Positions 4,335 to 58,488 of a stretch of DNA of 64,000 nucleotides are shown one piece after another. The notes beneath the pieces were generated by a model. The model had not been told where the DNA came from and searched no databases. It worked only from the letters and a program-made list of their open reading frames with translations. A program made the translations under genes and the position numbers. Source of the DNA: Pararhodobacter zhoushanensis (GTDB taxonomy: Bacteria > Pseudomonadota > Alphaproteobacteria > Rhodobacterales > Rhodobacteraceae); contig NZ_REEZ01000013.1 in assembly GCF_003990445.1 (NCBI RefSeq), forward strand, positions 56,956 through 120,955, in the 5' to 3' direction. How positions within the stretch are numbered: position 1 is the first letter of the stretch; every line of letters starts with the position of its first letter.

Positions 4335-5132
4335 GTGCCACAACGCCCTCAGGACCGAACGCTGCGCCGCCGTGTCTCTGCCGCCATCGATCCCGAGATG
4401 CGCGAAGGTCCGGGCCTGTCGCTCTTTAATCGTCTGGTTGTCGCCAGCATTTTGCTGCTGATCGTTGCAGCGGTGGTTGAAACCGAGGTCCATGTGATCC
4501 GGCGCTACGATTGGGCGATGGGCACGCTCAAGGCTGTGCTCTTTGTCTTCTTTGCCGTCGAGTTTCTGCTGCGGGTGTGGGTCGCCACGCTGAACCCGAA
4601 GGTGCGCAGTGTCTGGTCGTATCTTGTCTCGGTCTCGGCCCTTGTGGATCTGGCGGTGCTGGTGACGTTCCTGATGCCGTCTTTCGGATTTGAGGCGTTG
4701 GTGTTTCGCTTGTTGCAGATCACCCGGATCCTGCGGCTGACGCGGCTGGGACGCTACAGCCGGGCGCTGAACCTGCTCTTCGACGCCTTTCGCTCGCGCG
4801 CGACCGAACTGATGCTTAGCGCCATGCTCGCCCTCGCGCTGATGCTCGCGGCAGCGACTTTGCTCTATGTGGTCGAGGCCGACGCCCAGCCCGAAGCCTT
4901 CGGCTCGATCCCGCGCGCGATGTGGTGGGCGGTCGAGACGCTGACAACGGTGGGCTACGGCGATGTTGTGCCGATCACATCGCTGGGCCGGTTTCTGGCC
5001 GCGCTCACGGCGCTCTGCGGTATTGGCATCATCGCCTTGCCGACCGGCGTCTTGGCGGGCGCCTTTTCCGAAGCGATCCGCCGGGCGCGCGAAGACACGT
5101 CGCGTAAGAAGAACAACGAGTACCCCTCTTGA
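4335..5132 (+). CDS. Voltage-gated potassium channel family protein (six-TM ion transporter)
   Basis: Inner-membrane K+ channel. There are six hydrophobic segments between residues 34 and 240. An S4-like segment around residues 124-143 has regularly spaced arginines (FRLLQITRILRLTRLGRYSR). The pore helix and selectivity filter read ETLTTVGYGD, with the filter at residues 204-210. A short cytoplasmic tail follows, with no RCK domain, so it is a compact Kv-type channel. The GTG at 4335 has no clear ribosome binding site. The ATG at 4398 (residue 22) would retain all six membrane segments and is an equally possible start. It closely follows the GntR gene. Its stop codon overlaps the -35 element of the ssrA promoter. 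Confidence 0.88.
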   Translation: MPQRPQDRTLRRRVSAAIDPEMREGPGLSLFNRLVVASILLLIVAAVVETEVHVIRRYDWAMGTLKAVLFVFFAVEFLLRVWVATLNPKVRSVWSYLVSVSALVDLAVLVTFLMPSFGFEALVFRLLQITRILRLTRLGRYSRALNLLFDAFRSRATELMLSAMLALALMLAAATLLYVVEADAQPEAFGSIPRAMWWAVETLTTVGYGDVVPITSLGRFLAALTALCGIGIIALPTGVLAGAFSEAIRRAREDTSRKKNNEYPS

Positions 5133-5157
5133 GAAGCCCTGCGCCCGGCCCTATATA
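5129..5157 (+). promoter_or_regulatory. Promoter of ssrA (tmRNA)
   Basis: TTGAGA at 5129-5134, a 17-base spacer, then TATATA at 5152-5157. This is a near-consensus housekeeping promoter and among the best in the window, as expected for an abundant stable RNA. The -35 hexamer overlaps the stop codon of the channel gene. The predicted start is about 5164. Confidence 0.75.
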
Positions 5158-5164
5158 AGAGGTG

Positions 5165-5478
5165 TTCCCGGCAACGGGATCTATGGACATAAACGCGCTC
5201 GTAATAATCGGATCGGACCCGGGGGCGGTACCCGGCGGCTCCACCAAACACCCGTATTGGCGGGTCATGGGGCCGAAACAGGATCGACGAACGTCTAAAG
5301 GGGTTTGCTTTGTCTCGGTGAGCTACCACCGTTACCGGTGCAAAACGTACAGTTGCCAATGACAACCGTGCTCCGGCAATGGCTCTGGCTGCGTAAGCAG
5401 TTCGAGTCGCCGAACTTAAGCCCTTGCGCCTAGCAGCGTAAGGCGGGGTCCGCAGGCACCTGGCAACAGAAGCCTGCA
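5165..5478 (+). ncRNA. ssrA: Two-piece (circularly permuted) transfer-messenger RNA
   Basis: tmRNA rescues stalled ribosomes and adds a degradation tag. The gene is permuted as in Caulobacter and other alphaproteobacteria. The acceptor piece comes first: a CCCG-GCAA-CGGG hairpin at 5167-5178, a T-arm CCGGG/CCCGG with a 7-base loop, and CGGCTCC-ACCA ending at 5246. A 22-base intervening segment (5247-5268) should be excised. The coding piece starts at 5269 with GGGGCCG, which pairs with CGGCTCC to rebuild the tRNA-like acceptor stem, followed by AAACAGGATCGACG. The tag frame is at 5355-5396, and a final GCAGGC/GCCTGC hairpin ends near 5477. Outer ends are estimated. The strong promoter upstream agrees. 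sspB, 1.7 kb downstream, encodes the adaptor for tagged proteins. Confidence 0.92.
5355..5396 (+). other. tmRNA tag-peptide reading frame (ANDNRAPAMALAA)
   Basis: Resume codon GCC at 5355, then codons for NDNRAPAMALAA and a TAA at 5394. With the alanine carried by the tRNA-like part, the added tag reads AANDNRAPAMALAA. The AND N-terminal part resembles the Caulobacter tag region read by SspB. The terminal LAA is the usual ClpX recognition end. Confidence 0.9.
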
Positions 5479-5601
5479 CTTACTCCCCCCCTCTTGGAAC
5501 GCCATCTGGACACGCCCAGCGTGAATCCGTTTGACTGGCGTCGCGCCGCTGATAACGTCAACGGCACTGACCCCTTTCTCACATTCTTCTATGAGGTTCC
5601 C

Positions 5602-19644: not shown

Positions 19645-19678
19645 AAAAGCGGCGCGCCCAACAGGACGCGCCGCTTTT
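19645..19678 (+). terminator. Rho-independent terminator after uvrA
   Basis: A perfect 12-base stem, AAAAGCGGCGCG (19645-19656) and CGCGCCGCTTTT (19667-19678), with a 10-base loop. It ends in TTTT and begins with AAAA, so it could act in both directions between uvrA and gcdH. Confidence 0.85.
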
Positions 19679-19709
19679 CATCGTGCCCGAAATGCGCACC
19701 GGGGGGGGG

Positions 19710-19769
19710 TCAAGGGGGGAGCGTGCTCCCCCCTTGAAGCAGGGGGCCCGGGGGGCGGCAGCCCCCCGG
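19710..19769 (-). repeat. Post-stop double-hairpin element after gcdH (simple form)
   Basis: Reading along the gcdH strand from its stop: hairpin 1 CCGGGGGGC-TGCC-GCCCCCCGG (19769-19748), then hairpin 2 with arms TCAAGGGGGGAGC (19710-19722 on the plus strand) and its complement (19725-19737). A C-rich tract and GGTGCGCATTT follow. Order and orientation match the composite elements after ccdA, dctD and coxM. It may act as a terminator or 3'-end stabiliser. Confidence 0.7.
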
Positions 19770-19778
19770 AACCGGTAA

Positions 19779-21989: not shown

Positions 21990-22091
21990 CACCTTTTTTG
22001 GTGAAGGGGGAGGTCCGGAGGGGGAGCCTGCTTCCCCTCCGGGAGGGTGCGGGTGGCAACCCGCGCGGGCGCGAGGGGGGTCAATCCCCCC
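21990..22091 (-). repeat. Post-stop multi-hairpin element after queA (simple form)
   Basis: Read along the queA strand: a G6/C6 hairpin whose loop contains the queA stop codon, then GCGGGT-TGCC-ACCCGC (22064-22049). Hairpin 2 follows with arms starting CCGGAGGGG (22042-22015), then a C-rich tract and a CACC-AAAAAA-GGTG hairpin (22003-21990) leading into GCGTATTTG. The order matches the elements after gcdH, ccdA, dctD and coxM. It could also terminate the convergent LysR transcript. Confidence 0.65.
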
Positions 22092-45221: not shown

Positions 45222-45287
45222 ACTCGCCCCACATTTTGACAGCTACGCTACGCCAAACACCTGCCGCTGGGAACCCGGAAGCGACGC

Positions 45288-45463
45288 GAGGGGGCCAGCC
45301 CCCTCTGCGCTGACGCGCATTCACCCCCGGGATATTTCAGGAGCAAAGAGGCGCATGGTTAACAGGTCGCTAACTAGCATTTTCTGTCTGTAAATATCCA
45401 CGGGAGGAGTCCAGAGGAGGGGGCGTGCCCCTCCTCTGGCGACGGGGCGCGCAGCCCCCCGCC
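45288..45463 (-). repeat. Composite post-stop hairpin element, copy A (after ccdA)
   Basis: Read from the ccdA stop on the minus strand: hairpin 1 with CGGGGGGC-TGCG arms (45458-45440 region), hairpin 2 with arms CCAGAGGAGGGG (45411-45439), then GTGGATATTTACAGACAG. A central segment with TTAAC-like sequence (45359-45378) follows, then hairpin TGCGC-GTCA-GCGCA (45306-45319) and hairpin GAGGGGG/CCCCCTC (45288-45305). The same order occurs in copies B and C. Confidence 0.75.
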
Positions 45464-46216
45464 TTACCCGATCTGGCCGAGAAACGGGAACACATCCAGC
45501 AGCCAGAACGAGAACGAGGCCATCGCGCCCGTGATCAGCGCAATCCCGACAACCACCAGCAGCACGCCCATGACCTTTTCGATCACGCCCATCCACGGCT
45601 TGATCCGGTTCATCAGCCCGATCGCGCGGGTGATGAAGATCGCGGCCAACAGGAACGGCAGCCCCAGTCCCACCGCATACGCCGCGAGCAGCGCGGTGCC
45701 GCGGGTGACCGAGCCTTCGGAGGCCGCGAGCGAAATGATCATGCCCAGAATCGGGCCAATGCACGGCGTCCAGCCAAAGGCGAAGGCCAGCCCCAGCACA
45801 TAGGCGCCAAAGGCCGAACCGCCGCGATTGCCCGCGTCCAGCCGGGCCTCGCGCATCAGGAAGCCGATCTTGAACAGCCCGAGGAAATGCAGCCCCATGA
45901 CGATCACCACCACCCCGGCGATCTGGGCGAAGGTCTCTCGGTATTCCAGAAACAGCCGCCCAAGGCTAGACGCCGTGAAGCCCAGCAGCAAGAACACCGT
46001 GCTCAGCCCCATCACGAAGAACAGCGCGGGCACAGTCGCTGCACTGGGGCCCTTCTTGCCATCGGTCAGCTCGCGCATCGAAATGCCCGACATATAGGCC
46101 AGATAGGGCGGCACGATGGGCAGCACGCAGGGGCTGAGGAACGACAACAGGCCCGCCAGCAGCGCCACGATGAGTGAGGGCAACAGGGCTGCGTCGAAAA
46201 GGTCGATGCCGAACAT
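45464..46216 (-). CDS. ccdA: Cytochrome c biogenesis protein CcdA
   Basis: Inner-membrane thiol-disulfide transporter passing reductant from thioredoxin to periplasmic cytochrome c maturation factors. 250 residues with six hydrophobic helices. The two redox cysteines are in LSFLSPCVLPIVPPYLAYM and GWTPCIGPILGM. The start at 46216 begins the conserved MFGIDLFD; a short upstream extension is possible but lacks support. The gene is immediately followed by a composite hairpin element. Confidence 0.92.
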   Translation of the reverse strand: MFGIDLFDAALLPSLIVALLAGLLSFLSPCVLPIVPPYLAYMSGISMRELTDGKKGPSAATVPALFFVMGLSTVFLLLGFTASSLGRLFLEYRETFAQIAGVVVIVMGLHFLGLFKIGFLMREARLDAGNRGGSAFGAYVLGLAFAFGWTPCIGPILGMIISLAASEGSVTRGTALLAAYAVGLGLPFLLAAIFITRAIGLMNRIKPWMGVIEKVMGVLLVVVGIALITGAMASFSFWLLDVFPFLGQIG

Positions 46217-46317
46217 GGGCCAGACTCCGCTTGTGGCTTCCACCAATAGAGCCGCGCCCCCCATTCGTCACGGGGGGCGCGGCTCACGTTCGTATCAGTG
46301 CGTCACCGCGTCGCGGT

Positions 46318-49281
46318 TCAGCTTTTGCGGGCCCACCAACCCGCCCGGCGCGGGCGCGCCGGGTCGGTCGCAGGCTCTTCGGTAACCTCGGCGGGTTTCG
46401 GCTCTGCGTCGGCTCCCTTGGCGACCGGCGCCTCGACAGCGACCTCCGCTGCGGGTGCCTCAACAACCGGCACTTCGACAACGGTCGTTGCCGGGGCCTC
46501 AACGGGCGCTTGCGCTGGCACCTCGACCGGTGCTTCCACCGGGGCCTCGGCCGGGGCTTCAACGGGTGCCTCGACAGGCGTTTCGCCGGGCGCTTCAACC
46601 GGGGTTTCCACGGGCGTTTCAACCGGCGCGTCAGTCGCTGCGGCAGCAGTTACCGCCTCTGCCGCTTCCGTCTCGGCCTTGGGCTTGCGGCGCGTGCGCG
46701 TCCGTTTGCGCGGCGCAGCCGTCTCGCCCTCTGCGGTGGCGTCAGCCGGGGCAGCTTCGGCAGCCGGAGCTTCGGCCACGGTCTCGGCGGCGGTTTCGCC
46801 CTCAGCCTCGTCCACCTTGGGTTTGCGGGCCCGCGACCGGCGCTTGCGAACCGGCTTCTCAGGCTCGGCCGGCGCTTCAGCCTCAGCCGGAGCGGCCTCG
46901 ACCGTTTCGGTGGGCGCCTCGGCCGCTACCGGCTCATCGCCCGCCGCGTCCGCACCCTCGGCGTTGCCTGACTCGTCGTCACCGTTCGACTCATCATCTC
47001 CCGTCGACTCGCCGTTCTGACCGCCGCGCCGACGACGCCGACGGCGACGCTTGCGCTTGCTGCCATCACCATCGCCGCGTGCATCACCTGACTCGTCCGT
47101 CGCATCGTCACGGGCCTCCGCGACGGTCTCGGCTTCACCCTCAGCCTCGATCTCATCCTCGACGTAATCCGCCATGGCGTCATCGACCGAGGACATGGTC
47201 AGAGCATCCAAAGACACCACCGGCGTCGAGGGAACACTCACGATCCGCGTAGCGGTCTTGAACTTCTCGATCGAGTAATCCGGACTGACCAGCGACGCGT
47301 CGCCCTCGATCCGGATCGCCATGCCGTAGCGCAGCTCGATCTGGGCCAGATGCTCGCGCTTGGCGTTGAACAGATAGTTCACGATGCCATAGGGCGCTTT
47401 GACCAGCACTTCCTTCGAGCGGTTGCGTGTGCCCTCTTCTTCCAGAGCGCGCAGGATCTGCAGCGCCAGAGAGTTGTCCGAGCGGATCAGGCCCGTGCCG
47501 TGGCAATGCGGGCACGGCTGGGTCGTCGCTTCGATCATGCCGGGGCGCAGGCGCTGACGGCTCATCTCCATCAGGCCAAAGCCCGAGATGCGGCCAACCT
47601 GAATGCGCGCCCGGTCACTGCGCAGCGCGTCTTTCAGACGCTTTTCGACGGCGGCGTTGTTCTTGCGCTCTTCCATGTCGATGAAGTCAATCACGATCAG
47701 ACCGGCAAGGTCACGCAAACGCAACTGGCGGGCGACTTCGTCCGAGGCCTCAAGGTTGGTCTTCAGCGCCGTGTCCTCGATGGACCCTTCACGCGTCGAC
47801 TTGCCCGAGTTGACGTCGATGGCAACCAGCGCCTCGGTCACGCCGATGACGATATAGCCGCCCGATTTCAGCTGAACCGTCGGGTTGAACATCGCGGCCA
47901 GATAGCTTTCCACCTGGAAGCGCGCGAAAAGCGGCATCGCTTCCTGGTAGTGCACAACGCTCTTGGCGTGGGACGGCATGATCATCTGCATGAAGTCCTG
48001 CGCGGTGCGGTAGCCCGCCTCGCCTTCGACCAGAACCTCGTCGATGTCCTTGTTATAGAGATCGCGGATCGACCGCTTGATGAGGTTGCCCTCTTCATAG
48101 ATCGGTGCCGGAGCGATCGAGCGCAGGGTCAGATCGCGGATCTGCTCCCAGACGCGGAACAGGTATTCATAGTCGCGCTTGATCTCGGGCTTGGTGCGGT
48201 TGGCACCCGCCGTGCGGATGATCAGGCCCGCGCCCTCGGGCACGTCGAACTCACCGGCGATTTCCTTGAGCTTCTTGCGGTCGGCGGCATTGGTGATCTT
48301 GCGGCTGATGCCGCCACCGCGCGCGGTGTTGGGCATGAGCACGCAATAGCGACCGGCCAGCGACAGATAGGTGGTCAGGGCAGCGCCTTTGTTGCCGCGC
48401 TCTTCCTTGACGACCTGCACCAGCATGATCTGCCGGACTTTGATGACTTCCTGAATCTTGTAGCGGCGTGCGCGCGAGCGGCGTTGCGGGCGCACTTCGT
48501 CGGACACGTCCTCATCAGCGACCGACTCGATCTGGTCGTCGCGGTCGCTGGCGTTGTCCGCGGCGCGGAACGGCTTCTCGTCGTCGTCGTCGCTGTGGTC
48601 TTCGTCGTCGCCGTCGGCCTCTTCTTCCAGCTCGACGATATCCATGGCGCCATAAGTGCGCAGCTCGGTGCCTTCGGCTTGAGCCGCCATCGGTGCCTTG
48701 GGTTCTGCCGGCGTTTCGGGCTCGGCCTCAGCGGCAGGCGTTTCAGCCGCCGGCGTGTCAACGGCTGCGGGCTCGGCGACGGGGGTCTCTTCCACCACCG
48801 GCGCTTGCGTCACGACCGCAGCGCTTTCGACGGTAGCTTCAGACGGACCCTCCTGCTGGGCGTCCGCGACGGGCTGATCGTCGGCCTGATCCTCGGTGGT
48901 GGCGTCGGCGTTCGCCTCGCCTTTGGCAGGCTTGTCATCGCCACGACGGCGGCGCGACGAGCGGCGGTTGCCCTCATCGTCCTGATCGCGGGCCATGGCG
49001 CGCTCTTCTTCAAGCAGCGCTTTGCGGTCGGCGACGGGGATCTGGTAGTAATCCGGGTGGATCTCGGCAAAGGCCAGAAAGCCGTGACGGTTGCCGCCGT
49101 AATCGACGAAAGCCGCTTGCAACGAGGGTTCGACCCGCGTGACCTTGGCTAGATAGATGTTACCGGCAAGCTGCCGTTTGTGGATGGTCTCAAAGTCAAA
49201 TTCCTCGACCTTGTTGCCGTCCAGAACCACGACGCGGGTTTCTTCCGCGTGCGTGGCGTCGATGAGGAGTTTCTTTCCCAT
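46318..49281 (-). CDS. rne: Ribonuclease E
   Basis: Endoribonuclease of the RNA degradosome, 987 residues. The S1 domain starts near residue 36 (GNIYLAKVTRVEPSLQAAFVDYGGNRHGFLAF). It is split by an acidic, Glu/Asp/Ala/Pro-rich insertion at about residues 95-272, then resumes (KIQEVIKVRQIMLVQVVKEERGNKGAALTTYL). The DNase-I-like active region contains EALVAIDVNSGK and DLAGLIVIDFIDM. The zinc link is CPHCHGTG. The C-terminal third is low-complexity with basic blocks and a Val-Glu-Ala-Pro repeat tract. The ATG at 49281 begins the conserved MGKKLLIDA. A long leader lies upstream. Confidence 0.96.
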   Translation of the reverse strand: MGKKLLIDATHAEETRVVVLDGNKVEEFDFETIHKRQLAGNIYLAKVTRVEPSLQAAFVDYGGNRHGFLAFAEIHPDYYQIPVADRKALLEEERAMARDQDDEGNRRSSRRRRGDDKPAKGEANADATTEDQADDQPVADAQQEGPSEATVESAAVVTQAPVVEETPVAEPAAVDTPAAETPAAEAEPETPAEPKAPMAAQAEGTELRTYGAMDIVELEEEADGDDEDHSDDDDEKPFRAADNASDRDDQIESVADEDVSDEVRPQRRSRARRYKIQEVIKVRQIMLVQVVKEERGNKGAALTTYLSLAGRYCVLMPNTARGGGISRKITNAADRKKLKEIAGEFDVPEGAGLIIRTAGANRTKPEIKRDYEYLFRVWEQIRDLTLRSIAPAPIYEEGNLIKRSIRDLYNKDIDEVLVEGEAGYRTAQDFMQMIMPSHAKSVVHYQEAMPLFARFQVESYLAAMFNPTVQLKSGGYIVIGVTEALVAIDVNSGKSTREGSIEDTALKTNLEASDEVARQLRLRDLAGLIVIDFIDMEERKNNAAVEKRLKDALRSDRARIQVGRISGFGLMEMSRQRLRPGMIEATTQPCPHCHGTGLIRSDNSLALQILRALEEEGTRNRSKEVLVKAPYGIVNYLFNAKREHLAQIELRYGMAIRIEGDASLVSPDYSIEKFKTATRIVSVPSTPVVSLDALTMSSVDDAMADYVEDEIEAEGEAETVAEARDDATDESGDARGDGDGSKRKRRRRRRRRGGQNGESTGDDESNGDDESGNAEGADAAGDEPVAAEAPTETVEAAPAEAEAPAEPEKPVRKRRSRARKPKVDEAEGETAAETVAEAPAAEAAPADATAEGETAAPRKRTRTRRKPKAETEAAEAVTAAAATDAPVETPVETPVEAPGETPVEAPVEAPAEAPVEAPVEVPAQAPVEAPATTVVEVPVVEAPAAEVAVEAPVAKGADAEPKPAEVTEEPATDPARPRRAGWWARKS

Positions 49282-49600
49282 GGTGTCTCGCTGCCCCGCG
49301 CGCCACATCGCCCGGCCCGGAGGGACCGCGCGCCTGAGCATCGGGGGGTAAGGTGGGGGCAATGCCATGCGACAGCGGACGGAGGGCGGCGATTTCGCGC
49401 GTCCCGTTCACGTTCCAAGCTGATGCGCACTCTGGCATCGCGGTTGCAGGCTCCGACGCTGCCTGTGCAGGCAGCGCCCTTTAAAGTCCGGGCCGACACG
49501 AGGGTCTGACCGGGCAATCCGACGGCTTTGAGGGCCGATCCCGCCCAAATCTCACCTTGCGGGAGAGTTGAGCCATGAATTTCGCGCAACAGTCGCGTGA
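49282..49600 (-). other. Probable long 5' leader of rne
   Basis: About 320 bases without a credible gene, upstream of the rne start. It holds a perfect 20-base palindrome, CGCTGCCTG-TG-CAGGCAGCG (49457-49476). Enterobacterial rne is autoregulated through hairpins in a long leader (established knowledge). A comparable function here is inference. Confidence 0.45.
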
Positions 49601-49707
49601 CATGTCGCTAACTCAGCATAGGGGGGAAGCGGACTACTGTTCAATGGGTAAAATGCGACAGGTCCTGCTGTGGCCGCGCATCTCGCGCCGCGACAGCTGA
49701 GAAAAGA

Positions 49708-49892
49708 AGGGGGGCCAGCCCCCCTCTGCGCAAAAGCGCATTCACCCCCCGGGATACTTGGAGACAGAAAATGAACATGGTTAACGTTACGTTAAGCGCA
49801 TTTTCTGTCTGAAAATATCCACGGGGGGTGTCCAGAGGGGGGCGCGTGCGTCCCCCTCTGGCGACGGGGGGCGAGCAGCCCCCCGCCTACCC
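49708..49892 (-). repeat. Composite post-stop hairpin element, copy B (after dctD)
   Basis: Read from the dctD stop on the minus strand: a CGGGGGGC-containing hairpin (49889-49864 region), hairpin 2 with arms CCAGAGGGG (49832-49861) and a GCACGC centre, then GTGGATATTTTCAGACAG. An imperfect palindrome follows around TTAA-CGTTACG-TTAA (49781-49795), then hairpin TGCGC-TTTT-GCGCA (49727-49740) and hairpin GGGGGG/CCCCCC (49708-49725). It is the best-preserved copy. Confidence 0.78.
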
Positions 49893-49893
49893 G

Positions 49894-51267
49894 TCAGACG
49901 TAATCGGCCCGGCTGAGCCCGTATTTCGCCATCTTCTCGTTCAGCGTCCGGCGCGGGAGGCAGAGCTCTTCCATAACCGCGACGATGGACCCCTTGTGGC
50001 GCCGCATCGTGTTGTCGATCAGCGTGCGCTCGAAAGCCTCGACATAGTCCTTCAGCGGCTTGCCTTCGGTTGTCAGCGCGCCGCCGGACGCCTCGTTCTC
50101 GGCCATGACCAGCGACACGACCGAGCCCGAACCACGCCGGTTCTGCAACACGGCCTGTTCGGCAATCGAGATCAGCTGGCGGATGTTGCCCGGCCACGGA
50201 GCCTGCAGCAGATAGGCCGCGTCCTGCGCGCTCAGATCGGGTGCGGGGCAGCCGTACTCTTCCGAATAATCCGTCGCATAGCTTTTGAACAGCGCCAGAA
50301 TATCCTCACCGCGCGTGCGCAAGGGCGGCAGGGTCAGCTTCATCGCAGCCAGCCGGTAGTACAGATCCGGGCGCAGCACGTCTTCCAGAGTTCGTCCCGG
50401 CCCGTGGTCATTGCAGATCGCCACGATTCGCGTCGCGGGCGGAGCGGGCTGGTCGTTGATGAAGGTCAGCAGCCGCCCTTGCAGCGCAGGGCTCAGCGCC
50501 TCGACATCCTCAAGGCACAGCGTACCGCCACGGGCTTCTTCGACCAGCGGCAACCCTCCCAGCGCAACCGGGCCGAACAGACGCGCGGCCAGCGCGTCAT
50601 CCTCGACCCCGGCGCAGGAGACGCTGACGAACTTGCGCCCGGCGCGCGGGCCGACAGCGTGCAGCGCATGGGCGACCAGCGTCTTGCCAGTGCCGGTCTC
50701 GCCGTCGATCAGCACGTGACCGTCAGCCTGCCCGTAGTCCAGCAGATCCTCGCGCAGGCGCACCATTTCTGTTGAGTTACCAACCAGCCGGCGCATCAGC
50801 GTGCTGCCATCAGCCAGTTCGTTGCGCAGCGCGCGGCTTTCCAGCGCCAGCGCGCGCGCTTTCAGCGCAGCGCGGGCCAGATCGGCCATCCGCTCGGGGT
50901 CGAAGGGTTTCTCCAGGAAATCCCACGCCCCCAGCCGCATCGCCTCGACCGCCATGGGCACGTCGCCATGCCCGGTAATCAGGATCACCGGCAGCGTCGC
51001 ATCCAGCCCCATCAGCCGCTTGAGCAGCGCCATGCCGTCCATGCCGGGCATGCGGATGTCGCTGACCACGATGCCGGGGAAATCCGGCCCCAGCACCGAC
51101 AGCGCCTCTTCGGCACTGGCGTAGGTTTCGGGCTGGAAACCCGACAGCGACAGCCATTGGCTGATCGAGGCGCGCATGTCCTGCTCGTCGTCGATGATGA
51201 CAATCCGCGTGGGGCTGCGCAGGGCCTGGGCCGTGGCGGGCGCGACGGCGCTCTCTGGGGCGCTCAT
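49894..51267 (-). CDS. dctD: DctD-like response regulator lacking the GAFTGA loop
   Basis: 457 residues. Receiver domain: acidic pair Asp26-Asp27, phosphoacceptor Asp70 (VVSDIRMPGMDG), Lys120. AAA+ domain: Walker A GETGTGKT (189-196), a Walker B-like GGTLCLED, and the RPDLYYRLA arginine region. Where sigma-54 activators have GAFTGA, after residue 231, this protein has FGPVALGGLPLVEEA, so the sigma-54 contact loop is missing. The C-terminal Fis-type helix-turn-helix reads LCLPRRTLNEKMAKYGLSR. The start at 51267 follows GGAGA. It is paired with dctB. It may act through the main sigma factor, as Rhodobacter NtrC does. Confidence 0.88.
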   Translation of the reverse strand: MSAPESAVAPATAQALRSPTRIVIIDDEQDMRASISQWLSLSGFQPETYASAEEALSVLGPDFPGIVVSDIRMPGMDGMALLKRLMGLDATLPVILITGHGDVPMAVEAMRLGAWDFLEKPFDPERMADLARAALKARALALESRALRNELADGSTLMRRLVGNSTEMVRLREDLLDYGQADGHVLIDGETGTGKTLVAHALHAVGPRAGRKFVSVSCAGVEDDALAARLFGPVALGGLPLVEEARGGTLCLEDVEALSPALQGRLLTFINDQPAPPATRIVAICNDHGPGRTLEDVLRPDLYYRLAAMKLTLPPLRTRGEDILALFKSYATDYSEEYGCPAPDLSAQDAAYLLQAPWPGNIRQLISIAEQAVLQNRRGSGSVVSLVMAENEASGGALTTEGKPLKDYVEAFERTLIDNTMRRHKGSIVAVMEELCLPRRTLNEKMAKYGLSRADYV

Positions 51268-51355
51268 GAATGGTCTCCGTGTGATCTCAAATTCATAGTC
51301 TCTCTGTCGGTCAGTGCTTACAGGGTGCCAGCGCTCAGGCTGTGTGTATACCACG

Positions 51356-53122
51356 TCATGCAACACTTTGTCCGGCGTTCACCAGCACGGGTAACGCAAT
51401 CTCGAACGCGGCGCCGCCTTCGGGCAGGTTATGGGCGGTCAGCCGTCCGCCATGGTCGGCGATAATGCCCGACGAGATCGCCAGCCCAAGGCCAACCCCC
51501 TCGCCCGGTTTCTTGGAGGTATAGAACGGCTCGAAGATCTTTGCGATCTCGGCGATCCCTGCCCCGTTGTCGCGGATGGTCAGGGTGACGGTATCGCCCT
51601 GCGTCAGCAGGATCTCGATCTGTGGCGCGTTGGCCTGACGCGTGGCATCAACCGCATTGCGCATCAGGTTGATGATCACCTGCTCCAGCCGCAGCCGGTC
51701 GCCCATCACCATGGTCGGGTCTTTGGGCAGCGTGCGCACCACCAGCACCCGGCGTTCGCGCAGGCGCGGCTCCATCATCGCCAAGGCCTCGGTCACCGAG
51801 GAGCGCAGGTCCAGGGGGGCAAAGGCGTCGCCCCCCTTGCGCGCGAAGCTTTTCAGCTGGCGGGTGATCGCGCCCATCCGGTCGATCAGGTCGTCGATGC
51901 GCTGGAAACTGACCAGCGCCTCTTCCGAGCGCCGCCGGGTCAGCAACAGCCGTGCCCCGGCCAGATAGGTCTTCATCGCTGCAAGCGGTTGATTGAGTTC
52001 ATGACTGACCGCTGCCGACATCTCGCCCAGCACTGCCAGTTTCGAGGATTGCACCAGCGTCTGTTCCGCGACGTGCAGTTCTTCCTGCACCTTTTCGCGC
52101 GCCGCAATCTCGCGTTGCAGGCGCAGGTTCAGCTGGCGCAGCTCGACCGATTCCTGCTCGAACCGCGCGGATTGCGACCACGCGCGGCGCGAGAAGATAT
52201 AGAACACCATCGCCAGCAGCAGCGCGAAGCCCATGATGATCAGCGCCAACACGCCGTTCACCTTCTCGCGCACGCCGTCATAGGTGGTGAAGCTGATCAG
52301 CCGCCAACCGCGATGCTGCACGCGGCTCTCGGACCGCAGAACCGCCTCGTTCGACAAGAACGCATCCGGTCCGCGGCCGGCCAGATCGGCGGTATAGCGC
52401 AGCGCCCATTCGATGGCCGAGGGCGCGTCACGCAGTTCCAGCGCCTCGGCCTCGGTCCGGCCGCGCCAGCGCGGCTCGGTCGCCAGAATAATCCGGCCTT
52501 CGCTGTCCAGAAGTGCGACGGCATCCGAGAACCCGGCCCACGAGCGTTCGAACTTGGCCAGATCGACCTCGACCGTGACCACGCCCAGCACCTGCCCATT
52601 CGCGCGCAGCGCCCGCGAGTAGCCAAAGCCGTAGCCGCCGGAATCGCGGGGCTGAACGGCGAAGATCGTGTCATTGGCGCGGCGTGCTTCGATGAACAGC
52701 GTTTCCGAGGTACGGGTCACGCCAAGCCGGTTCCGGTCTGTCGCAGCAACGACCCGGCCCGAGATATCGAGAAGTTCGATCGACGCGGCACCAACCTCGG
52801 ATTGCAGGCCGATCAGCAGTTGCGAGATCGAGGCGTAATTGCCGTTTTGCAAGGCTTCGCGCAGCACCGGGTCGCGGGCCAGCAGGATCGGCACGATCTG
52901 CGTGCGCTGCATTTCGGCTTCGATGTTGCCCGCATAGAGAACCAACCGCAATTCGGCGCGGTTGCGCGTGTCGACGGTGAAGCTTTCGCTCAGCCAGTCG
53001 TCCATCACCCAGACGACGGCGACTGCGATCACCAGCAATAGACCAACGACGGCCTTGCCCCATGCTGGCATGCCGCTGCGCAATGCTGCCAAGGGGGCAG
53101 ATAGTCGTGTCTCGTCCGTCAT
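51356..53122 (-). CDS. dctB: DctB-like sensor histidine kinase
   Basis: 588 residues. A membrane helix near residues 21-41, a periplasmic sensor region of the double-PAS type (about 45-285), a second membrane helix (about 288-315), a coiled coil, then the kinase core. The phosphorylatable His is in MSAAVSHELNQPLAAMK. N, G1 and G2 boxes are visible as NLMRNAVDATRQ, IRDNGAGI and GEGVGLGLAIS. DctB proteins sense C4-dicarboxylates. The ligand here is presumed. dctD follows on the same strand. Confidence 0.9.
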   Translation of the reverse strand: MTDETRLSAPLAALRSGMPAWGKAVVGLLLVIAVAVVWVMDDWLSESFTVDTRNRAELRLVLYAGNIEAEMQRTQIVPILLARDPVLREALQNGNYASISQLLIGLQSEVGAASIELLDISGRVVAATDRNRLGVTRTSETLFIEARRANDTIFAVQPRDSGGYGFGYSRALRANGQVLGVVTVEVDLAKFERSWAGFSDAVALLDSEGRIILATEPRWRGRTEAEALELRDAPSAIEWALRYTADLAGRGPDAFLSNEAVLRSESRVQHRGWRLISFTTYDGVREKVNGVLALIIMGFALLLAMVFYIFSRRAWSQSARFEQESVELRQLNLRLQREIAAREKVQEELHVAEQTLVQSSKLAVLGEMSAAVSHELNQPLAAMKTYLAGARLLLTRRRSEEALVSFQRIDDLIDRMGAITRQLKSFARKGGDAFAPLDLRSSVTEALAMMEPRLRERRVLVVRTLPKDPTMVMGDRLRLEQVIINLMRNAVDATRQANAPQIEILLTQGDTVTLTIRDNGAGIAEIAKIFEPFYTSKKPGEGVGLGLAISSGIIADHGGRLTAHNLPEGGAAFEIALPVLVNAGQSVA

Positions 53123-53179
53123 AACGCCAATCTATGCGGCGAAACGGGCGGCCTCAAGCCGCGCCGGGGCGCGCGCGCT

Positions 53180-53848
53180 TCAGGTAAGCGCCAAGGCGCC
53201 CATCAAGCCGTCGAACATCGCCATGCCATCCGTGCCACCATGCTCGGAGCTGATCGCACGTTCAGGGTGCGGCATCAGGCCCAGCACGCGACGGTTTTCC
53301 GACAGAATACCGGCGATGCTGTCCATGGACCCGTTGATGTTCTGCGCATAGCGGAACGCGACGCGGTCTTCACCTGACAGGCGCAGCAGCGTTTCGGGGT
53401 CGGCCTGATAATTGCCGTCATGATGCGCAACCGGGATCACCGCGGTATCGCCAAGGCTGTAGCCCCGGGTAAAGGCACTGTCAGTGGTGGTCACACGCAA
53501 CTCGACAGGCTTGCAGATGAACTTGAGCCCGGCATTGCGCATCAACACGCCCGGCAGCAGACCGGTTTCCACCAGCACCTGAAAGCCGTTGCAGACACCC
53601 AGCACATAGCCGCCACGCTCGGCGTGTTTGATCACGGCCTTGGCGATGGGGGAATGCGCCGCAATCGCGCCGCAACGCAGGTAGTCGCCGAACGAGAAGC
53701 CGCCGGGAATGCCGACGATATCAGTGCCCTCGGGCAGCGCGGCATCCTTGTGCCAGACCCGCGTGACCTCGGCCCCTGCCGCCTCGAAGGCAACGGCAAG
53801 GTCGCGGTCGCAGTTGGAGCCCGGGAAGGTGATGACGGCAGCTTTCAT
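53180..53848 (-). CDS. purQ: Phosphoribosylformylglycinamidine synthase, glutaminase subunit
   Basis: Supplies ammonia from glutamine to PurL in purine synthesis. 222 residues. Class I amidotransferase features: [21 protein letters not shown] at the N-terminus, [20 protein letters not shown], the catalytic cysteine in [12 protein letters not shown], and the His-Glu pair in MPHPERA. In related genomes purS and purL often lie nearby. The 229 bases upstream here hold no purS, and the next gene is the oppositely oriented coxS. Confidence 0.95.
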
Positions 53849-53978
53849 GCGCGCCTCCGCTGGTGTGATGATGGCCTTCCTTACTGCGCCGGGACGCCGG
53901 GGGAAAGAGGGTTTGGCCCGCTTTGCTCAGGCATAGGCACGCCCTGCCCCGCAGTTTCCCTGTGTGGCGCGCATATCA

Positions 53979-54076
53979 GTGTGACTGTCACGTTGCGAAC
54001 GCCTCAGATAGTCCTAAGGTGGCATATCGCCACTTTTTGCAGCGTGCTTACATGCTGCCATCCTAAGGGAGGGATT
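53979..54076 (+). promoter_or_regulatory. Structured 5' leader of the cox cluster
   Basis: Palindrome GTGAC-T-GTCAC (53981-53991). Hairpin GTGGC-ATATC-GCCAC (54019-54033) followed by TTTTT, resembling a terminator. A second hairpin has arms GCAGCGTG/CATGCTGC (54039-54058), ending just before the ribosome binding site. TCCTAAGG occurs twice (54012-54019 and 54061-54068), flanking both hairpins. This could be an attenuating leader or a regulator site. Confidence 0.45.
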
Positions 54077-54077
54077 C

Positions 54078-54563
54078 ATGACCAAGGTTACTTTGACCGT
54101 GAACGGCAAGTCGATGTCGGGCGAGGCCGAAGGCCGCACGCTGCTCGCCTCGTTCCTGCGCGACACGCTGGGCCTGACCGGTACCCATATCGGCTGCGAC
54201 ACCAGCCAATGCGGCGCGTGCGTCGTGCATCTGGACGGCAAGGCGGTGAAAAGCTGCACCCTGCTGGCGATGGATGCCGATGGCGGCAATGTCACCACGA
54301 TTGAGGGCATGGCCAACGCCGACGGCTCGCTGAACACGATCCAGCAGGCGTTTCAGGACCACCACGGCCTGCAATGCGGCTTTTGCACGCCGGGCATGGT
54401 GATGTCGGCCTCGGCTTTGCTGGCTGAGAACCCGAAACCGACTGAATCCGAGATCCGTCATTACCTCGAAGGCAACATCTGTCGCTGCACGGGCTACCAC
54501 AACATCGTCAAGGCGGTGCTGGCAGCGTCAGGACAGGATGCCAACGTCATGGCCGCCGAGTGA
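54078..54563 (+). CDS. coxS: Xanthine-dehydrogenase-family [2Fe-2S] subunit (CoxS)
   Basis: Iron-sulfur subunit of an aerobic CO-dehydrogenase-type molybdenum hydroxylase, 161 residues. The first cluster site is Cys40, Cys45, Cys48, Cys60 (plant-type ferredoxin). The second is Cys100, Cys103, Cys135, Cys137 ([19 protein letters not shown]). Strong GGGAGGG ribosome binding site. First gene of a coxS-x-coxL-coxM cluster. The order S-L-M is that of form II clusters. Confidence 0.93.
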
Positions 54564-54568
54564 TCGCC

Positions 54569-54967
54569 ATGCGCAAACTCGCCCTTGCCGCAGCGTTTGT
54601 CTGTTTGCCCGCGCTGGCACAGGCCGACGGGTTTTACACCAGCGACATGGGCGAAGGCGGTGCACCGGAGGCCTGCATCGCGCGGGCCGAGCGTTCGTTG
54701 AGCGCCTATATCAGGGTAGCGCAAAACGCCGGTGCGACGATGGCCACGGGCTCGTGGTCGGTGGATGCTTACCATCTGCAACCCGGCGACGTGTCGGTGC
54801 AGATCGCCTGCCCTTACCGCGATTCGCATGTCTCGGCTGCGCTGGTAACCGCGTTCAGCACCGGGCCGGAAGCCGACCGCATCACTGCCGTTGAAGCCAT
54901 TGTACAGCGCTGGAATGCGCCCGGTCAGCAGGGCGACGGGCGCGATCCGGGCTCTCCGGGCAAATGA
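54569..54967 (+). CDS. Secreted hypothetical protein within the cox cluster
   Basis: About 132 residues. A signal peptide (MRKLALAAAFVCLPALAQA) precedes a small periplasmic domain with two cysteines (PEACIARAERSLSAY; VQIACPYRDSH), which could form a disulfide. No family recognised. It lies between coxS and coxL. The GTG at 54560 overlapping the coxS stop is an alternative start, but the ATG at 54569 begins the signal peptide. Neighbouring products are cytoplasmic, so its place here is unexpected. Confidence 0.65.
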   Translation: MRKLALAAAFVCLPALAQADGFYTSDMGEGGAPEACIARAERSLSAYIRVAQNAGATMATGSWSVDAYHLQPGDVSVQIACPYRDSHVSAALVTAFSTGPEADRITAVEAIVQRWNAPGQQGDGRDPGSPGK

Positions 54968-55063
54968 TCCCGGCCCCGGCTGCGCCCCACGCGGGAAGGC
55001 CGGCGCCGACAAGACGTGAACCGTAGGCCTCAGGCCTGCACGCAGAGTTTCAGGGAGGAAACT

Positions 55064-57445
<2,382 letters not shown>

Positions 57446-57457
57446 GGGAGCCACGGC

Positions 57458-58246
57458 ATGTATAATTTTGACTTTGTGAAACCATCGAGTGTTGCCGAAG
57501 CCGTCAAGGCGCTCAGCGATGACGAGGCGCAGCCGCTCTCGGGCGGGCAAACCCTGCTGCCGTCGATGAAACAGCGCCTGAACGCCCCCGGGACGCTGGT
57601 CTCGCTGACCGGCATCGCCGAGCTGAAGGGCGTGAAGCGCGAGGGCGACACGCTGGTCATCGGCGCGGCGACGCTGCACGCCACCGTGGCGAAAGAGGCC
57701 GCGGCGCATTACCCGGCGCTGGCGGAACTGGCGGGCCAGATCGGCGACCCGGCGGTGCGCAACCGCGGCACCATCGGCGGCTCGCTGGCCAACAACGACC
57801 CGTCGGCCTGCTATCCGGCGGCGGTGCTGGCCTCGGGCGCGACCATCGTCACCTCGAACCGCGAGATTGCGGCGGATGACTATTTTCAGGGCATGTTCAC
57901 CACAGCCCTGGAACCCGGTGAGATCATCACCGCCGTCCGCTTCCCGATCCCGCAGAAGGCGGCCTATGCCAAGTTCGTGCAACCAGCCTCGCGCTTTGCG
58001 CTGACCGGGGCGTTCGTCGCGCAATACGCCGATGGCGTGCGGGTCGCGATCACGGGTGCCTCCGAGGGCGGCGTGTTCCGCTGGTCCGAAGGGGAAGCGG
58101 CGCTGTCGTCCAACTTCTCGGCCGATGCGCTCAAAGGCATGTCGGGTGAGGCTGAAGGCATGATCGGCGACCTGCACGGAACGCCTGCCTACCGCGCGCA
58201 TCTGGTGGGCGTCATGACCCGCCGGGCTGTTTCGGCGGCGCACTGA
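57458..58246 (+). CDS. coxM: FAD-binding subunit of the molybdenum hydroxylase (CoxM)
   Basis: Medium subunit carrying FAD, 262 residues. FAD contacts lie in LSGGQTLLPSMKQRL and in VRNRGTIGGSLANNDPSACYPA. The C-terminal domain closes the family pattern. It is 12 bases downstream of coxL and completes the S-L-M set. No coxD, coxE, coxF or coxG accessory genes follow. A composite hairpin element begins about 15 bases after its stop. Confidence 0.92.
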   Translation: MYNFDFVKPSSVAEAVKALSDDEAQPLSGGQTLLPSMKQRLNAPGTLVSLTGIAELKGVKREGDTLVIGAATLHATVAKEAAAHYPALAELAGQIGDPAVRNRGTIGGSLANNDPSACYPAAVLASGATIVTSNREIAADDYFQGMFTTALEPGEIITAVRFPIPQKAAYAKFVQPASRFALTGAFVAQYADGVRVAITGASEGGVFRWSEGEAALSSNFSADALKGMSGEAEGMIGDLHGTPAYRAHLVGVMTRRAVSAAH

Positions 58247-58261
58247 CCGGCGGGTTTCGCA

Positions 58262-58488
58262 CCCTGCAGGTGCGGCGCTCGAGGGCATCGAGCCCCCTCG
58301 CGCCGCGTGGGGCTGACCCCACACCCCATCCAAGGAAGGCGCACGCGCCTCCCTTGGAAATCCCTCCGTGGATATTTGAAGACAGAAAATGAAACAGGGT
58401 TAGCGAAACCTTATCATCTGTCCTTAAATATCCTGGGGGGTGAATTGGCCGTAAGGCCAAGAGGGGGGCAAGGCCCCCCTGCCCGATT
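58262..58488 (+). repeat. Composite post-stop hairpin element, copy C (after coxM)
   Basis: Inverted relative to copies A and B on the chromosome but in the same orientation relative to the preceding gene. Hairpins are CGAGGG...CCCTCG near 58279-58300, GTGGGG-CTGA-CCCCAC (58307-58322), and CCAAGG...CCTTGG with a GCACGC centre (58330-58357). Then comes GTGGATATTTGAAGACAG (58368-58385), a central GGGTTAGCGAAACCTTA, hairpin TTGGCC-GTAA-GGCCAA (58445-58460) and hairpin AGGGGGG/CCCCCCT (58462-58480). Confidence 0.75.

Follow-up and report, generated by a model that had tools for sequence, protein, structure and literature searches.

A large family of modular hairpin repeats located between genes, often directly behind stop codons, in Rhodobacteraceae

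Within a 64,000 nucleotide stretch of the Pararhodobacter zhoushanensis genome (contig NZ_REEZ01000013.1, positions 56,956 to 120,955; hereafter the window) three similar composite hairpin elements follow the stop codons of three different genes, raising the question of whether such structures serve mRNA 3' ends or are simply repeats that have settled there. An alignment of these copies, A, B and C (alignment A1), confirmed both the positions and the common order of parts given to them in the initial annotation, and when folded against shuffled sequence they returned z values of -5.6, -10.0 and -7.5, with 0 of 200 shuffles equalling any copy. The central segment around TTAA-N7-TTAA, previously listed as a part of its own, is indeed present but is the loop of one long hairpin, in which GTGGATATTT pairs with AAATATCC downstream. 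In a search that permitted one mismatch, GTGGATATTT had three exact matches in the window, all inside copies A, B and C; as 9 of 100 shuffles contained at least three matches, however, this word by itself is weak evidence. The preceding genes had been named ccdA, dctD and coxM. By Pfam the first encodes a DsbD/CcdA-type membrane protein (PF02683) and the third a molybdopterin-dehydrogenase FAD subunit, in keeping with ccdA-like and coxM-like assignments, whilst the second is a sigma-54 response regulator that is dctD-like but not specifically so. Downstream of A, B and C lie a weakly lipase-like gene, RNase E and pntA, respectively. A start within about 20 bases of the stop, as originally described, holds for A and B but not for C when measured to the first modelled hairpin (Table 1); in C an additional hairpin occupies the space between. 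Stretches resembling this extra module were noticed by eye next to other copies.

Copies A, B and C are each built of two half-elements in a facing arrangement. Such a half consists of a G/C hairpin (H1), a second hairpin (H2), a C-run and GGATATTT, after which come two free bases and a purine-rich tail word, which is AGACAG, GAGCAAAG or GCATAAAG; elsewhere, GGAGTATTT or GCGTATTT occur as core variants of GGATATTT. In type I halves a G6/C6 hairpin is followed by a hairpin such as CCAAAGGGGGGAGCACGCTCCCCCCTTTGG, a C-run, GT, GGATATTT, the two free bases and the tail, whilst in type II halves the G6/C6 hairpin precedes a short hairpin (e.g. TGGCC-N4-GGCCA), ATTCACCCCCC, GGATATTT, two free bases and the tail. 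Further hairpin versions, III, IV and some unclassed by our simple sequence rules, occupy the place of the type I hairpin. Pairing between the GGATATTT arms makes GTGGATATTT one arm of the central palindrome. Besides facing pairs (composites), halves were also found singly (solos). In facing halves the cores and matching tails can pair into a third, longer hairpin, the arms of which are 83 % complementary in copy B (49745-49773 and 49799-49827); the tails of copy A are mismatched, its type II half carrying GAGCAAAG against AGACAG in type I. Across 1.66 Mb we counted 56 solos and 33 composites, 32 of the latter being type II on one or both sides. The 122 cores in this sequence were followed by AGACAG (71), GAGCAAAG (32), GCATAAAG (16) or another tail (3). 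Both arms shared the same tail word in 26 of the 33 composites, compared with a chance mean of 14.1, a level reached in 0 of 100,000 permutations. Core and tail word are retained in single halves too, where the second arm for pairing is absent.

Table 1. Half-elements and associated hairpins in the window, with model scores (R1, R2 and R3, covariance models described in the text) and distances to stop codons.
Feature	Position	Strand	Basis and remarks
Copy A, type I half (H1, H2, C-run, GGATATTT, tail AGACAG)	45378..45463	-	R1 88.4 bits (in R1 training set); R3 match at 45377-45445, 23.6 bits; 0 nt from ccdA-like stop
Copy A, opposing type II half; tail GAGCAAAG	45285..45351	+	R2 41.2 bits (outside R2 training set); R3 64.8 bits
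Copy A, hairpin H2, CCAGAGG type, GCACGC-type centre	45411..45439	-	Fold; coordinates counted from sequence
Copy B, type I half	49799..49887	-	R1 102.7 bits (in training set); R3 31.1 bits; 6 nt past dctD-like stop
Copy B, type II half; core GGATACTT, tail AGACAG	49704..49773	+	R2 74.4 bits (in training set); R3 59.2 bits
Copy B, central palindrome: both C-run/GGATATTT arms and tails, TTAA-N7-TTAA loop	49745..49827	.	Fold
Copy C, type I half	58304..58391	+	R1 87 bits (in training set); absent among R3 matches; 57 nt past coxM-like stop
Copy C, type II half	58412..58483	-	R2 89.4 bits (in training set); R3 68.5 bits
Copy C, extra G/C hairpin module between stop and H1	58274..58304	+	Sequence and fold
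Further single type I half, between convergent genes	19676..19770	-	R1 58.6 bits (outside training set); 8 nt past acyl-CoA dehydrogenase stop
Further weak single half, between convergent genes, no canonical core	21990..22072	-	R1 30.2 bits, E 3e-4; 8 nt past queA stop

Covariance models were built for the type I half (R1; 18 sequences, including those of A, B and C) and the type II half (R2; 16 sequences, including those of B and C). Each gave at least 150 scored matches in the whole genome, and the many further copies, mostly intergenic, bore out the initial view of a family. E-values from R1 and R2 are rough; rows with E ≥ 0.001 were left out (40 of 49 R1 and 50 of 54 R2 rows being kept), these being repeats of kept halves on the other model or partial matches (model 34-63) on the opposite H2 strand. 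In 864 kb of unselected sequence (C1:1-800000 plus the window) there were 59 merged halves at 42 places, 32 of type I and 27 of type II, which, scaled by proportion, would correspond to ∼330 to 355 halves per genome. The pattern GGATATTTN{0,5}AGACAG occurs 83 times in the genome and its reversed form 0 times; a similar pattern gave 50 matches in the 864 kb, none of them in genes, and one match in reversed form. Genes were called with our own codon-usage caller, by which 89.6 % of bases are coding. Against these calls, the 122 cores in 1.664 Mb divided into 58 in convergent, 59 in tandem and four in divergent intervals, with one, lacking a tail word and probably a chance match, inside a gene. 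The copies avoid genes and divergent intervals; a location inside or upstream of genes had been named as speaking against a 3'-end role. Convergent intervals hold 58 of the 121 intergenic cores on 14 % of intergenic bases (an enrichment), whilst divergent intervals hold four on 30 % (a depletion). Moreover, 20 of the 32 type I halves start within 10 nt of a same-strand stop.

Copies A, B and C do keep one orientation relative to the preceding gene, as had been emphasized, but strict orientation fidelity survives genome-wide only as a bias of type I halves and is not absolute for the family. Only tandem intervals are informative, since in convergent ones a half reads away from a stop whichever way it is turned; a convergent count of 24 of 24 sense is trivial because both flanks there are stops. 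In tandem intervals, sense and antisense numbered 19 and 3 for type I halves, 5 and 14 for type II, and 7 and 11 for the rest. Tandem solos showed no overall orientation bias (15 of 27 sense, P = 0.70), and a strict 'all sense' orientation was accordingly rejected for them. For the 16 tandem composites, the proximal half was type I in eight, type II in four (two of these being II-II) and another kind in four. The first hairpin faces the stop of a same-strand gene in 46 of 59 model matches, comprising 29 convergent cases, where this is automatic, and 17 of 29 tandem ones.

The taxonomic reach of the family was assessed with a third model, R3, derived from 30 genera (our own genus being one of them, with the window copies excluded). 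In the window its matches covered copies A and B, each in both halves, and copy C in its type II half. Of 149 Rhodobacteraceae genomes, each representing a different genus, 117 had matches with E ≤ 1e-4, at least 87 of these 117 lying outside the training genomes (a count of 31 matches in a genome stands for at least 31), whilst 141 other genomes sampled from the class, at least one of them from the same family, gave 0 matches. Similarly, R2 matched all 19 genomes of the genus (with just 4 and 1 matches in two of them) and five of six other family members, with 0 matches in 16 genomes from other families. Type II loci from 30 genera were found in convergent (15), tandem sense (8), tandem antisense (4) and divergent (0) positions, the remainder being within a called gene (2) or at a contig edge (1). 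The exact core GGATATTTNNAGACAG proved too narrow to serve as a family marker, occurring in 12 of 149 genera, our own included. In named genomes, the Rhodobacteraceae names among which were not checked one by one, the matches listed for GGATATTTNNAGACAG included Gemmobacter, Fertoeibacter, Szabonella, Pseudogemmobacter, Paracoccus, Tabrizicola and others; the isolated matches to Polaribacter, Blautia and further members of unrelated phyla look like chance. The family is, then, a large, Rhodobacteraceae-specific set of modular hairpin repeats between genes, often directly behind stops.

Compensatory changes, the absence of which from the stems had been named as evidence against the 3'-end reading, were found in each of three alignments in excess of shuffles. 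For the second hairpin of type I (A2) there were 33 two-sided changed cells versus 9.9 in shuffles, at 95.8 % paired; for the type II hairpins (A3), 19 versus 5.7, at 97.5 % paired; and for 30 loci taken one per genome and genus (A4), 39 versus 13.5, at 84 % paired. Because the pattern used to select the A4 loci holds TTCACCCCC and GGA-TATTT constant, only their hairpins count as evidence. Other measures were weaker: the number of pairs with a two-sided change was reached by 12 of 500 shuffles in A3 and by 34 of 500 in A4, and that of further pair types in A2 by 424 of 500. Sliding the partners produced a clear drop in signal in A2 and A3; A4 retains 21 cells at slide -3.

Amongst known systems, REPs and BIMEs appear most alike in working, being extragenic, mosaic, arranged in facing pairs and near stops in the sections available of PMC2817692 and PMC12306157. 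Both systems consist of hundreds of extragenic palindromic units, single or in facing pairs, mosaic and often close behind a stop; the half described here differs in being ∼70-95 nt long with two hairpins, in sites that are nearly stable between sister species, in swappable tail words that are matched between arms, and in lacking an associated RAYT (Y1_Tnp) gene in our genome. REP-type repeats are defined, in the part of PMC3733652 available, by a GTAG or CGTC tag beside a 20-40 bp palindrome, and CGTC repeats are there reported in all alphaproteobacterial orders. By eye, GTAG was not seen in A2 or A3, and CGTC directly preceded H2 in two of 18 A2 rows, namely window copies A and B, and so not consistently. 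An overlapping Rhodobacterales family may already be drawn in that paper. The HRC-8-4 motif of Rhodobacterales resembles our element in being structured, intergenic and of the same order; it belongs mainly to one locus, between cco operons, has a terminator-like stem with a U-run, and is not described as a repeat family in the accessible portion of PMC8632094, which describes other Rhodobacterales motifs as well. Rfam covariance models gave no match at the copies, neither with gathering scores over the whole window nor, for copy A, with E ≤ 1. ERIC, NEMIS and RIME are likewise palindromic intergenic repeats of one bacterial group that are able to be transcribed. None of these is known to have a two-hairpin half with a swappable tail. 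ERIC and NEMIS are named in the available text of PMC1590033, which also describes uptake-sequence terminators, similar to our element in that an inverted pair of conserved words forms a stem. Word searches of the main texts of PMC12306157, PMC3733652, PMC2817692, PMC2267715 and PMC1590033 did not return the name Rhodobacter. Among the matches listed in openly licensed literature there was no such Rhodobacteraceae repeat, which is weak evidence of absence, and those listed for sequence words of the element were to unrelated work only; the family is apparently without a name so far.

The copies, their anatomy, covariation, placement and taxonomic spread, as well as the exchange of tail and hairpin modules at kept sites described below, form the observed basis on which we favour, with moderate confidence, a REP/BIME-like, family-specific interspersed mosaic element that would act as a two-sided 3'-end structure. 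A transcript passing the stop of either neighbour would meet two or more very stable hairpins; these might set or protect the mRNA 3' end by blocking 3'-to-5' exonucleases, and could help Rho to stop read-through into the opposing gene. Non-allelic gene conversion, and not transposition at the present time, would keep the copies alike. Of the role at mRNA 3' ends suggested initially (termination, stability or sRNA release), the general idea is consistent with intergenic placement, convergent enrichment and compensatory changes, from which we infer the function itself, but termination found no support. Like intrinsic terminators, the element places GC hairpins behind stop codons, but its stems are followed, by eye, by C-runs, GTGGATATTT or TGAAT in place of a U-run, and it also occurs beside canonical terminators. 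Such terminators, some of which lie inside the element itself, were not significantly rarer at ends with a half than at ends without one, either in convergent (8/28 versus 35/88, P = 0.37) or tandem intervals (3/17 versus 47/243, P = 1), and so gave no significant sign that the element replaces intrinsic terminators.

A less likely alternative is that of a functionless selfish MITE-like repeat, spread by some transposase and surviving where it does least harm, behind stops. Hundreds of similar copies and the avoidance of genes and divergent intervals would suit such a repeat, and avoidance of genes and promoters, as relied upon for the 3'-end reading, would be equally expected of tolerated junk. 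It also draws on more distant congeners, in which the full element was seen neither at site A (five congeners recovered) nor at site B (seven recovered), the flanking genes being ∼71-87 % identical; at site A, G149 and G150 have a single type II half in its place, and our reading of G164 and G157 is that only a core-like remnant persists beside the ccdA stop, with a fainter one in G154. Weighing against it is the sister species G166 of the same genus, which is ∼93 % identical to and largely collinear with our genome. The orthologous interval was contained in the sister stretches examined for 39 of the 42 places, and 37 of these 39 had a core-like match in both species (with one mismatch allowed, a pattern that also gives some spurious matches). 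Conversely, 54 of 56 sister halves fell in intervals where our genome holds a copy (24 of 49 sister R2 rows were entered, the remaining 25 duplicating R1 matches), and no clear empty/filled site was seen among the 39 intervals. Covariation of the stems across 30 genera and the matching of tails are further points against a selfish repeat. The RAYT/Y1 transposase (PF01797) had 0 matches in our own genome and was present in 15 of 149 family genomes; since our genome has the most strict-core matches of all 149, a REP transposase was rejected as the present driver. Furthermore, G054 and G029, with 12 and 4 Y1 matches respectively, are without an R3 match. At a separate place (site S, C1:430763), five congeners have a tail that continues into what looks like the start codon of the following gene; this overlap was not found to be general, and a ribosome-binding role for the tail was set aside.

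Whilst the sites are kept, their content is exchanged. Tail class differs between the sisters in nine of 51 comparable halves, and for 17 comparable composites the tails were unchanged in 12, changed in one arm in three and changed in both arms in two. At place #5 the two species share identical flanking stems and differ by a swap of the apical cassette alone, GCATAAAG...CTTTATGC for GAGCAAAG...CTTTGCTC, whilst at places #2 and #4, 22 kb apart, second-hairpin versions are exchanged crosswise between the two species. The H1 hairpins are apparently tandemly multiplied in the sister at #2, #4, #6 and #10. Such constancy of site combined with changing content would be better explained by non-allelic gene conversion than by transposition going on today.

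Such exchange also bears on an explanation that we regard as unlikely, in which the element works at the DNA level as a cruciform, a single-strand hairpin or a protein-binding palindrome, with GGATATTT-NN-tail word as a putative binding site and hairpins copied by template switching or gene conversion; gyrase or IHF binding is reported for BIMEs in the excerpted text of PMC2817692. The replacement of entire apical cassettes between identical flanks at #5 speaks for it, as do the core and tail word kept in unpaired single halves, the dominance of two-sided over one-sided changed cells (33:2 in A2, 19:7 in A3 and 39:12 in A4) and the scarcity of G-U pairs. The latter made up 14 of 509 pairs in second hairpins versus 31 of 485 in 44 canonical terminators (P = 0.006); first hairpins had 16 of 348, and the best hairpins from intervals lacking the element 105 of 961. 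The comparison is confounded by GC content and the relatedness of the copies. With the two-sided excess and few G-U pairs, palindrome copying at the DNA level fits at least as well as selection on RNA pairing, and selection on RNA alone is weakened as an account of the stems, although little weight attaches to the G-U argument because the copies are related and GC-rich. Three tail words and the core variants GGAGTATTT and GCGTATTT, however, weaken the case for a single binding site, and base-by-base comparison of the sister stems yielded, in 15 comparable cases, three two-sided and two one-sided changes, a further 30 differing in stem length.

By analogy with REPs, a hairpin within ∼15 nt of the stop might instead stall ribosomes and lower the output of the gene, which we consider improbable. 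Start positions within 15 nt of a same-strand stop were recorded for 20 of 32 type I and seven of 27 type II halves, and the available part of PMC12306157 lends support to such control; the other 32 of 59 halves are, however, farther off or not behind a same-strand stop, and composites hold more structure than this effect needs. Release of an sRNA from the 3' UTR after processing is very improbable, for although 3'-UTR-derived sRNAs are described in Rhodobacter sphaeroides (available text of PMC8625941) and the tail words are common to many copies, the element has no U-run 3' end and no Rfam match, and the window copies follow unrelated genes.

Returning to the favoured 3'-end structure, it could be extended, speculatively, to a two-sided gene-boundary module operating throughout Rhodobacteraceae, in which hairpin modules I to IV and three tail words would be set around a fixed GGATATTT hinge, and cassettes would be swapped whole, in both arms at once, between identical flanks. 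Conversion of DNA hairpins, or palindrome copying, would in that case maintain structure at hundreds of mRNA 3' ends with no need of a dedicated transposase. Independently of this extension, the sister comparison affords a rare view of bacterial palindrome evolution, with cassettes replaced whole and sometimes in both arms together. Should the 3'-end role prove true, existing RNA-seq data and 3'-end maps would be usable as an immediate test, and the Rhodobacteraceae, a much-studied family including Rhodobacter, Paracoccus and the roseobacters, would possess a shared structured repeat behind several percent of their genes (46 halves behind a same-strand gene per 795 called genes here).

An alternative version of the core, GCGTATTT, with a tail resembling GGCAAGATGAA, is also present in the P. 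zhoushanensis genome, and at some of the sites on contig C1 that carry it (listed in the table below) clear hairpins are absent. Within the interval behind the ccdA-like stop, where this genome holds the composite copy A, the congeners G149 and G150 (loci L276 and L277) have a lone type II half with GCGTATTT or ACGTATTT as its core.

In the sister genome G166, the H1 hairpin unit has apparently been multiplied in tandem behind the stop codon at the orthologues of element places #2, #4, #6 and #10. An additional hairpin module accompanies copy C, and by eye several other copies are flanked by modules resembling it.

Selected features of the window and of contig C1 in the P. zhoushanensis genome (G000)
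Feature	Location	Remark
tmRNA gene	window 5125-5480	alphaproteobacterial (permuted)
Additional hairpin module (GGCGCTCGAGGGCATCGAGCCCCCTCGCGCC)	window 58274-58304	in copy C, separates H1 from the coxM-like stop
Core GCGTATTT sites	G000 C1 88406, 138920, 242433, 337197, 554764	

Searches of the congener genomes returned only four type II matches in G156, the assembly of which is 82 % complete, and one in G163, whereas the 16 remaining congeners had between 42 and at least 122 each, which suggests either loss of the element or wrong placement of these two genomes in the genus.

At C1:430763, in an interval between tandem genes, the tail of a half directly reaches the apparent start codon of the next gene, as it does at congener loci L282-L286; the same interval in G162 (L287) is without the element. 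Given this position in the sequence, the element may therefore contain the ribosome-binding site of the downstream gene at these loci.
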